Assembly (NCBI GenBank): GCA_039714315.1
Contig: JBDLJM010000009.1
Span: 1 to 41,410 of the forward strand
Direction of reading: 5' to 3'
DNA length: 41,410 nt
Source: Bacteroidota bacterium
GTDB taxonomy: Bacteria > Bacteroidota > Bacteroidia > Flavobacteriales > JADGDT01
Below the pieces are notes generated by a model. The model ran no database searches. It saw nothing but the letters and a program-made list of their open reading frames with translations, and was not told the DNA's origin. Position 1 is the first letter of the stretch. Each line of letters begins with the position of its first letter. The translations under genes were made by a program, and so were the position numbers. Below are positions 19,115 to 22,719 of the stretch, piece by piece.

Positions 19115-20380
19115 TTAAAAACTAAACTTGGCTCCTATATTCCAAACCTGATAATCATAAGGATTGTCAACATCGAAGAATGGTGACAGCTCATATTTTC
19201 CAACTACACTAAATGCACCATATCCTATTTCGGCCTGCAGACCATAGCTAAACGGATTCACATAGTATTTGTTTCTATTAGTTATTAGGTTTTTATCACC
19301 ATCGGCATCTTTAAATTTTACCGTTTGCCAGGTATACCATCTTACACCTCCATAAGCTCCAATACCTATTTTAAAACCTGTGTCCATACGGTGTTTACTA
19401 AAATCTAACTGAAGCATTACGGGTGCTGTCATATACAGATTTCTTATTCTTGATACTTCCAGGTTTCTTCCAAAAGGATCTTCAACATACATTGGTTGAT
19501 CATTTACTTTTTCTAATATATAATCTCCTTTTACACGGTAATTACTCCACTGTAAACCCAGTCCGTATTTTATATGCAATGGACTGTTTTCTTTGAACAT
19601 TCTTGTTTTTCCGTTAAAAGAAAATCCAAAATACATCGAAGGCCACATATCAAAATCGGGATATTCAGCGGCTGTACCTTCAATATGTTTATAGTCTTCT
19701 AATCCATCCCATCCAAAATCAATATCGAATTTAAATCTCGTTCTTTTTTTATGGTGTTTATATTTTTTGTGTTTAGATTTATCACTAAACGAAATAACGA
19801 TATTATCTTCATCGTCCGAAATACGAATACCGTAAAAATCATCATCATCATCGTATTTTCCTTCTTCCAGTTCTTCCGAAAGATTATGAAGTTTCTCGGC
19901 TTTCAGTTCCAGAATAATTGCCTGACGTTCCAGATCACTATAGTTTTTATCCAGAAGTTCCTGATTTTCTTCTATTATTTCTTCTATCTCCTCGAGTTCT
20001 TTTTCATGTACCTGAAGCATAATATTGGCCTGTTCTTCAATATTTTTACCGGCTTCATTTATCTTTTTTGAAGCTTCTTCGGCAGCTCTTTGTTTTTCTT
20101 CGATAGCCTGCTCACCGGTTATTTCGCCTTTGGCTTCTTTTTCCTCAATAAGTTTGAGTTCCTGTTTAAGTTTTTCGGTTTCTTCGCGTATAACTTTGTC
20201 ACTTTCTTCTTTTGCCTGTTTCATTGCCTTTTTTAGTTCTTCGGCAGTAACAGTGTCATCAATCATTATTTTACGCTTGTCTAATTCACTTTCGTTAATT
20301 ACTTCCTGCGCATTTATCAATCCCCCAAATATCAGGGCAACAGATAGTATTATGAATTTTAGCTTTAATAGGTATTTCAT
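19115..20380 (-). CDS. Outer-membrane protein with coiled-coil region and C-terminal beta-barrel
   Basis: A 421-residue protein. The signal peptide runs to about residue 25 (LIFGGLINAQ). Residues about 45-180 are a strongly charged, Glu/Lys-rich helical region with heptad character. An acidic stretch (EGKYDDDDDFYG) and a KHKKYKHHKKR basic patch follow. The last 200 residues have alternating aromatic strands and end NIGAKFSF, typical of a PorT-like outer-membrane barrel. It follows the sigma and anti-sigma genes by 22 bp, so it is probably in their operon and may be the envelope output or sensor. The coiled coil could span the periplasm; this is inference. Confidence 0.78.
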   Translation of the reverse strand: MKYLLKLKFIILSVALIFGGLINAQEVINESELDKRKIMIDDTVTAEELKKAMKQAKEESDKVIREETEKLKQELKLIEEKEAKGEITGEQAIEEKQRAAEEASKKINEAGKNIEEQANIMLQVHEKELEEIEEIIEENQELLDKNYSDLERQAIILELKAEKLHNLSEELEEGKYDDDDDFYGIRISDDEDNIVISFSDKSKHKKYKHHKKRTRFKFDIDFGWDGLEDYKHIEGTAAEYPDFDMWPSMYFGFSFNGKTRMFKENSPLHIKYGLGLQWSNYRVKGDYILEKVNDQPMYVEDPFGRNLEVSRIRNLYMTAPVMLQLDFSKHRMDTGFKIGIGAYGGVRWYTWQTVKFKDADGDKNLITNRNKYYVNPFSYGLQAEIGYGAFSVVGKYELSPFFDVDNPYDYQVWNIGAKFSF

Positions 20381-20402
20381 AGTATTGATATTTTAAATAT
20401 GA

Positions 20403-21140
20403 TTATTTCTTAATAATTTTAATTAGGTCGTTTTTAGTTACAGGCAGGTTATTTTCTGTAATAAAATTACTGGTTTCTTTTTCTATTTTATTTAATAATT
20501 TTCCTGTGTATAATTCTGCCAGTCCTTTTTCGTTCTCATTTTCGGCCATTGACAATAATTGTTCCGGGCTGATATTTACCTCAATTTTTATCCATTGTTT
20601 AGAAGTTTGTATGAAGTTTGATTCTTTTGTTTTGTTTATTTTGGTGATCGAAGGTGATGCGAGTTGAGACGATGCACGCATCGTTTTTACGCGGTTTATA
20701 CCCTGTGAATTTAATGCAATAACACTTTTTGTATTTAATATTTTTGATTTTTGAGATGATGCCAGTTGAGACGATGCGTGCATCGTCTTTACCTGATTTA
20801 TACCTTGTGAATTCTTAGTAATAACACTTTTTGTATTTATTATTTTTGATTTTTGAGATGATATAGGAGACGATGTGCGCATTGTCTTTACTGTACTTAT
20901 AGTTTCTGTTGCTTTGTAAGGACTTAGAGTAGTATTATTGTTAACATCCACATTACTGCTAATAGGGTACAGAAGCGCTATTATAATGGCAAACCCAGCC
21001 GCAAGCTTAAAATAAAATATTTTATTTGAGTTTCTTTTTCCATTGCTGAGTTGTACATCTATTTTATTCCACAAATCAGAGGAAGGTTTAATAGAGTTAT
21101 TCCTAAGTTTTTCCTTAAACAGTTTATCTATATTATCCAT
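20403..21140 (-). CDS. Putative anti-sigma factor (single-pass) with tandem-repeat linker
   Basis: A 245-residue protein. The N-terminal cytoplasmic part (MDNIDKLFKEKLRNN...SDLWNKIDVQL) resembles Bacteroidota anti-sigma-like proteins. One membrane helix lies at about 41-60. A Ser/Lys-rich extracytoplasmic linker carries three tandem units beginning VKTM at residues 84, 117 and 151 (33 and 34 residues apart). A conserved-looking C-terminal segment (QWIKIEVNISPEQLLSMAENENEKGLAELYTG is split here only for description) follows. It starts 18 bp after the ECF sigma stop codon, so it most likely restrains that sigma factor. No zinc-finger HxxxCxxC motif is present, so the assignment rests on context and topology. 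Confidence 0.65.
   Translation of the reverse strand: MDNIDKLFKEKLRNNSIKPSSDLWNKIDVQLSNGKRNSNKIFYFKLAAGFAIIIALLYPISSNVDVNNNTTLSPYKATETISTVKTMRTSSPISSQKSKIINTKSVITKNSQGINQVKTMHASSQLASSQKSKILNTKSVIALNSQGINRVKTMRASSQLASPSITKINKTKESNFIQTSKQWIKIEVNISPEQLLSMAENENEKGLAELYTGKLLNKIEKETSNFITENNLPVTKNDLIKIIKK
20642..20891 (-). repeat. In-frame tandem repeat (99/102 bp) carrying a REP-like palindrome
   Basis: Three copies of a roughly 100-bp unit lie inside the putative anti-sigma gene. Each contains a palindrome centred in VKTM(R/H)(A/T)SS: ACGATGC-AC-GCATCGT (20669-20684), GACGATGC-GT-GCATCGTC (20770-20787) and a degenerate GACGATGTGCGCATTGTC (20869-20886). The first two keep perfect arms. Palindromes of the type GAGACGATGC..GCATCGTCTC occur as dispersed intergenic repeats in Bacteroidota. 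Here one appears captured in coding DNA and then duplicated in frame. Confidence 0.75.
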
Positions 21141-21158
21141 GACTCAGGTTTATTTTTT

Positions 21159-21752
21159 TTATATTGAAATACTTACAATTACAGATTCGTCAGATACTGA
21201 TTCTAATTTTTTCACTTCTTTTTTTAATATACTACGCGCTTTAAAAAGTTGTGATTTAGAGGTACTTTCCGTTATATTTAACATCTCTGCAATTTCGCTG
21301 TGTTTGTATTCTTCGATCGCATACAGATTAAATATAGTTCTATATCCGTCCGGTAATTTATTAATCAGATTCATAAGTTTGTCGGCACTTATATTTTCTG
21401 ATGATTCTCCAATTTCTGTCTCATCATCCATTAACTGAATATTGTCAGTTGAGAGATGTATACTTTTATTTTTTCTCAAATATGAAATACTTTCATTAAC
21501 AATTATTCGTCTCATCCATCCCTCGAAACTTCCTTTATTATTGAATTTATTCAGATTGGAATATATTTTCATAAAGCTTTCCATCAATACATCTTCTGCA
21601 ATTTGATAATCGCTGATATATCTGAGACAAACAGCAAGAAAAATTCCCGCATATTTATCGAAAAGGTATTTTTGAGCCTGTGGTATGGCAGCAATACAGT
21701 CTTCGATAAGTTTGTCTTCGTTTTTATATTTATCCAGTCGAAAAAGTTTCAA
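21159..21752 (-). CDS. ECF-type RNA polymerase sigma factor
   Basis: A 197-residue sigma-70 family protein with region 2 at about 24-95 (LFDKYAGIFLAVCLRYI, AEDVLMESFMKIY, GWMRRIIVNESISYLRKN) and region 4 at about 126-178 (LPDGYRTIFNLYAIEEYKHSEIAEML, then SQLFKARSILKKEV). There is no region 3, the ECF layout. It heads a minus-strand set with a putative anti-sigma factor (18 bp downstream) and a coiled-coil outer-membrane protein. This fits cell-envelope stress control, probably with autoregulation. The 163-bp divergent gap to the next plus-strand gene shows no clear promoter motif to me. Confidence 0.93.
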   Translation of the reverse strand: MKLFRLDKYKNEDKLIEDCIAAIPQAQKYLFDKYAGIFLAVCLRYISDYQIAEDVLMESFMKIYSNLNKFNNKGSFEGWMRRIIVNESISYLRKNKSIHLSTDNIQLMDDETEIGESSENISADKLMNLINKLPDGYRTIFNLYAIEEYKHSEIAEMLNITESTSKSQLFKARSILKKEVKKLESVSDESVIVSISI

Positions 21753-21915
21753 TTTTGGCCTGTTTTAATAGTAAGACGATTTAAGTTATAAAAAGTTGCC
21801 TGAGTTTTATAAAATATATAACTGGTTATTAATCATTTGTGGTACATAAGTTGTTAAATAATAGATTATATGTTATATATTGTAAACGATTTATAAAAAA
21901 ATTAAACTACTTATT

Positions 21916-22719
21916 ATGAAGAATTTAATCACTGTTATATTATTGTTTTTGTCTGTTTCTGCATTTGCCCAGGACAAAATAATTAAAAAAACCGGTGACG
22001 TTATTAACTGTAAAGTTACCGAATTAGGTGCTGATGAGGTTAAATATTATTATTCAGGAAATGAAAAACTGATATTCGGTATTGATAATGCCAAGGTAGA
22101 AAAGGTTGAATTTGCTACCGGTGAGGTTGTTGTTATAAAGAGTGATACTTTCATGGATGAGGAGTATTATGCAAATCAGAGTAAGCATGCATTTAAAATA
22201 GGATTTTTGGAACCAATATTTGGTCATACCTCATTTACTTACGAGCAGTATATCAAACCAGGAAGATCGTGGGAAACTTCGTTGGGAATTATTGGTTTAG
22301 GTTTAGATAATTATGATTTAAACGCCAGAGGTGCTTATGGAAAAGTTGCTTATAAAATGATGAGAAAACCCGATTATTATATGACGCGTATGCATTATTC
22401 TCATATATTGAAAGGTGCTTATGTTGCTCCGGAACTGGCTATGAGAATTATGTCGTATGACGGTGGTGGATATTATAATTATAATACCGGTTATTATGAA
22501 GATGGTGACAGAGAATCAAACTTTGGAATAGCCCTGACTTTAAAATTTGGAAAGCAGTGGGTAATAGATGACGGGTTATTGATTGATCTTTATGCCGGTG
22601 TTGGATACGGAATAGGAGGTGATGATAATGAAGGACCAATGCCATTTGGGTTTATTGCCGGTCCGTCGGAAGTGCCAATAGCATTTACAAGCGGATTGAG
22701 AATTGGATGGGTATGGTAG
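21916..22719 (+). CDS. Secreted or outer-membrane protein, unknown function
   Basis: A 267-residue protein with a clear signal peptide (MKNLITVILLFLSVSAFAQ). An N-terminal segment (DKIIKKTGDVINCKVTELGADEVKYYYSGN) is of the type seen before outer-membrane barrels in Bacteroidota. A Gly/Tyr-rich, strand-alternating remainder ends LRIGWVW with a C-terminal aromatic, as in outer-membrane barrels. It is divergent from the ECF sigma gene, so it could belong to the same regulon; that is inference. A REP-like unit abuts the stop codon, and a terminator lies about 100 bp downstream. Confidence 0.7.
   Translation: MKNLITVILLFLSVSAFAQDKIIKKTGDVINCKVTELGADEVKYYYSGNEKLIFGIDNAKVEKVEFATGEVVVIKSDTFMDEEYYANQSKHAFKIGFLEPIFGHTSFTYEQYIKPGRSWETSLGIIGLGLDNYDLNARGAYGKVAYKMMRKPDYYMTRMHYSHILKGAYVAPELAMRIMSYDGGGYYNYNTGYYEDGDRESNFGIALTLKFGKQWVIDDGLLIDLYAGVGYGIGGDDNEGPMPFGFIAGPSEVPIAFTSGLRIGWVW

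Follow-up and report, generated by a model that had tools for sequence, protein, structure and literature searches.

How three REP-type palindromes came to lie in frame within a single regulatory gene, and whether they matter to the regulator, is the question raised by the window analysed here (the whole stretch of 41,410 nucleotides from a Bacteroidota bacterium). The explanation that we favour, with a probability of roughly 0.8, is that REP-derived elements dispersed by the genome's own RAYT were captured in the linker of an anti-sigma factor and then recombined there, with a near-neutral outcome. The host gene (20403–21140, minus strand) is 245 codons long and encodes a protein with a short cytoplasmic N-terminus, one transmembrane segment (hydropathy maximum at approximately residues 41–60) and an extracytoplasmic part that harbours the REP array. 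An ECF sigma factor gene (21159–21752, minus strand; Pfam Sigma70_r2, 2e-13, and Sigma70_r4_2, 4e-16) is located upstream in the same operon, and the third operon gene codes for an outer-membrane beta-barrel protein (19115–20380, minus strand; Pfam OMP_b-brl_2, 1e-7). Searches of the protein against Pfam and NCBIfam gave no match, curated anti-sigma domains included. It is therefore called anti-sigma-type from its context, namely the adjoining ECF sigma gene, the N-terminal cytoplasmic part and the single transmembrane segment, and is not placed in a named anti-sigma family. The operon order of sigma factor, anti-sigma factor and beta-barrel protein is common to ten genomes of the order, as is the N-terminal motif.

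All three palindromes are read on the minus strand, and the ORF stays open across them, so that a mobile palindrome sits in frame in an otherwise intact gene. The first in protein order, U3 (20867–20891; palindrome 20867–20888), encodes VKTMRTSS and is decayed, with two G.T mismatches. The second, U2 (20766–20792; palindrome 20768–20789), encodes VKTMHASS, is the only perfect palindrome and matches exactly the dispersed consensus GTAAAGACGATGCNNGCATCGTCTCAA. The third, U1 (20664–20690; palindrome 20666–20687), encodes VKTMRASS and has one palindrome mismatch (GACGATGCACGCATCGTT) and one mismatch to the dispersed consensus. The sequence-only reading of this locus had described two perfect copies and a decayed third; the decay is confirmed, while perfection is confined to the middle copy. 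Within the window GAGACGATGC occurs six times with at most one mismatch, against 0.58 expected.

The palindromes are spaced by 102 and 99 bp, and the segments between them, A (20793–20864, containing SSQKSKIINTKSVITKNSQGIN) and A' (20691–20765, containing SSQKSKILNTKSVIALNSQGIN), both on the minus strand, are 83–89% identical, the upper value holding across 21 codons. The array, covering about 75 residues of the protein, thus has the order REP-A-REP-A'-REP, in which a segment of about 70 bp has been duplicated once. Homology to A is not seen beyond the outer REPs (37% after the last REP and 37–44% before the first, p 0.67), and the alignment scores of these outer sequences are not above those of shuffles. 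The earlier proposal of repeat units of 99 and 102 bp is therefore right for the spacing, but three full tandem units of about 100 bp are ruled out. An array in which homology ends at the outer REPs fits unequal recombination or slippage between direct REPs about 70 bp apart, and we infer this to be the route by which it arose. A further candidate, the whole unit of about 100 bp as the mobile element, was rejected because confident matches elsewhere cover the REP of about 27 bp only; the match on contig C70 extends to 44 bp at 82%, into a T-rich flank.

A palindrome in a coding sequence need not be mobile DNA. The repeat could be one of protein, with the palindrome a chance by-product of codon usage, and an equally long or high-scoring palindrome was indeed obtained in 32 of 500 codon shuffles of the gene, so that the single-gene score alone is not significant. 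Significance comes instead from recurrence across the genome, which had been set beforehand as the test of the mobile-palindrome proposal and was assessed by pattern searches. With as many as three mismatches allowed, the 27-bp pattern GTAAAGACGATGCNNGCATCGTCTCAA was found 10 times and the reversed control not at all; these matches represent eight places, two symmetric places being counted on both strands. Elsewhere in the genome this asymmetric element (GTAAAGACGATGC..GCATCGTCTCAA) is mostly located between genes. After U2, which is exact, the closest matches are U1 and an intergenic copy on C36 (one mismatch each) and intergenic copies on C31 and C70 (two each), with more copies on C89, C115, C157 and C192; each of these seven contigs carries an intergenic copy. 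In total about 13 confident copies are present at at least nine loci, as for a dispersed REP palindrome of 20–40 bp. Because an element with both of its asymmetric ends recurs between genes, and its core recurs in a RAYT gene, a chance palindrome is contradicted and the codon-usage explanation is hardly credible. One match, in a rhodanese gene (C31:18085), was discarded as probable chance, as it has two mismatches and the motif lies inside the conserved domain. The assumption that similar palindromes are known in Bacteroidota proved only partly right for the exact sequence, since GAGACGATGCNNGCATCGTCTC is present in just 2 of 395 genomes of the phylum, its own genome counted.

The dispersed copies differ in their foot. 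GTAA is found in the window copies and in those on C31, C36, C70 and C157, and GTAG in those on C89, C115 and C192. Canonical TnpAREP targets carry a GT[AG]G foot (PMC6006769). As the window copies have GTAA in place of this 5' foot of the TnpAREP hairpin, they are filed as REP-derived and not as canonical REPs; the GTAA-footed copies appear to form a sub-family of the element with the GTAG foot. At three places the TAG stop codon of a gene forms part of the foot (GTAG) of a REP-type element (L010 on C115, 1497–1499; L004 on C89, 1472–1474; L011 on C192, 841–843), and the 3' ends of these genes may have been set by REP insertion.

Of the approximately 13 confident copies, six are read in frame as coding sequence: the three in the anti-sigma-type gene, two in the RAYT gene of C192 and a single one in the metH gene of C151. 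Between this last copy (GAAACGATTCACGAATCGTCTC) and the REP on C115 there is a one-base difference, and REP ancestry is likely for the metH sequence. It sits in a loop that is long throughout the genus, with 23 residues in this genome and 25 and 20 in the two genus-mates, and that is shorter elsewhere in the order; no palindrome was seen in metH of the one genus-mate whose DNA was read; with such loop lengths in the genus-mates a clean REP insertion in metH is unsupported.

A RAYT/TnpAREP encoded on C192 of the same genome matches NF047646 with an E-value of 1e-13, in two stretches and under the curated cut-off. In its gene GTAGAGACGATGCACGCATCGTCTCTAC is read in frame, after the HxH motif and ahead of the C-terminal part, and there is a second, decayed copy. 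A related palindrome with the core GATACTCGTATC is present upstream of the gene, and the identical core occurs also twice inside the ORF. A cognate tnpAREP gene with the same palindrome beside it and inside it is thus present, and on sequence grounds this RAYT is the likely source of the element. The claim of an in-frame REP capture with tandem multiplication in the anti-sigma gene is in this way backed both by dispersed copies and by a cognate RAYT.

The other two RAYTs of the genome, on C20 and C25, carry different long in-frame palindromes at the same place, so that all three contain an in-ORF palindrome. A survey of 80 loci included 75 RAYT ORFs that belong to named genomes, and 47 of these had an in-linker palindrome whose net arm score was 12 or more, 44 of the 47 having a GTAG-type foot; because the loci were picked by similarity to the three RAYTs of this genome, the resulting 63% is not an unbiased rate. 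For subclass 2.4 TnpAREP, REPs inserted in frame into the tnpAREP gene itself, in the interval from HuH to Y, have already been described (Quentin et al. 2018, PMC6006769). The RAYT-internal palindromes are therefore corroboration and not a new discovery, and our placing of these RAYTs in subclass 2.4 refers to the shared in-ORF palindrome and the phylum, not to a tree. The C25 RAYT ORF (L046; G000:C25:470–561) contains ACCGTACTGTTGCCC three times directly, once with one mismatch, and once inverted; elsewhere in the genome, any match to it has at least two mismatches. Immediately upstream of this gene (L046, 1–130) are direct repeats of about 24 bp (TCCGGGCAGCCCTATAGCAGGTAGT). In-ORF REP-type palindromes were observed also in RAYTs of metagenome-assembled genomes labelled Uhrbacteria, Anaerolineales/Anaerolineae and Spirochaetes (L097, L111, L115, L120 and L128; the taxonomy is that of the labels).

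Relatives of the host gene bear on whether the array has a function. Across the order the sigma genes are 41–47% identical and the anti-sigma homologs about 25–40% identical, while the anti-sigma linkers are unalignable. The REP motif is absent from the homologs checked, and the extracytoplasmic linker varies freely in sequence and length across the order without REPs. In both same-genus genomes (L197 and L198, compared with window positions 19115–22719) the sigma and anti-sigma genes are absent, whereas the flanking outer-membrane protein gene and the plus-strand gene are kept. The switch is thus dispensable in the genus, which fits relaxed constraint. A clean empty site was found neither in these two genomes, which do not have the gene, nor in the homologs, at their identity of about 25–40%.

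These comparisons bear on the proposal, made in the sequence-only reading, that the insertion was domesticated and that the copy number of the unit of about 100 bp differs between strains, tuning the ECF sigma switch through linker length. In its favour are a period divisible by three, direct REPs, between which unequal recombination can occur, and an internal identity of the array that still stands at 83–89%; copy number may in principle tune the sigma pathway. However, the loss of both partners in same-genus genomes and the free variation of linkers that have no REPs leave domestication and tuning unsupported, and we consider tuning by a strain-dependent copy number improbable. We give a similarly low probability to a broader proposal, that host proteins (anti-sigma factor, MetH, RAYT) preferentially take up transposase-linked palindromes of this lineage in frame, and that direct copies of these serve as recombination sites through which a sigma-factor regulator can be lengthened and shortened reversibly without a change of frame.

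An effect in the mRNA is a further alternative, in which the 18-nt arms of U1 and U2, pairing inverted, or single hairpins alter how the anti-sigma message is translated or degraded in comparison with that of sigma. The array RNA has a folding energy of -49.1 kcal/mol, compared with -34.8 kcal/mol in codon-shuffled versions (z -3.3). However, any captured palindrome would fold, ribosomes would open the structure, and it is not conserved, being absent from all relatives checked. We regard such an effect as very improbable.

In the capture-and-recombination explanation, which we prefer, the RAYT/TnpAREP of the genome would disperse REP-derived palindromes, and one of these would have landed in the freely varying extracytoplasmic linker with the open frame VKTMxASS. 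Tolerance of the linker for additional residues would have allowed it to be retained. Unequal recombination or slippage between two direct REPs about 70 bp apart would then have given REP-A-REP-A'-REP. The outcome would be a longer linker, most likely near-neutral for sigma control, and we take the extension to be close to neutral. Against an origin from the RAYT stands the GTAA foot, so that the anti-sigma copies may be relics or products of another enzyme.

The element resembles the REPs of subclass 2.4 TnpAREP (PMC6006769) in being a dispersed, GTAG-footed, double-foot palindrome that is also present in frame within the gene of a RAYT. It differs from them in that REP-type elements occur here also within a regulatory gene of the host and within metH, and in the GTAA foot of the anti-sigma copies. 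In-frame REPs of the GTAG/CGTC type, single or grouped, have been described inside host genes (Di Nocera et al. 2013, PMC3733652), as here; many of those were found in genes for replication and repair, and mostly in other phyla, and the passages compared here mention neither an anti-sigma factor nor a REP-bounded tandem array. Rickettsia palindromic elements (RPEs; Ogata et al., cited in PMC3733652) are likewise protein-coding palindromes in frame in working genes. They are unrelated in sequence, those matched in that source being of the CGTC type, and are not known to have a dedicated transposase, whereas a cognate RAYT is present here. In-frame REPs in host genes, RPEs and REPs in their own transposase genes are thus already known. 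A search of the open-access literature found no report on repeats, whether tandem or palindromic, in Bacteroidetes anti-sigma factors, though an earlier one may exist, and as far as our searches show this case adds an anti-sigma host and a tandem array bounded by REPs to the known instances.

The locus is a readable case of mobile palindromes creating new protein sequence, since a single genome shows the transposase that is the likely donor, the dispersed copies, a copy in frame in a host gene and a tandem expansion bounded by REPs. If strains differ in copy number, in-frame tuning of an ECF sigma pathway would become testable. As a separate observation, a related palindrome (RASPVERMHAVETMHASSLHEQW) occurs as an in-frame doublet in a secreted repeat protein from another Bacteroidota family (L050, 1501–1522; genome G349).
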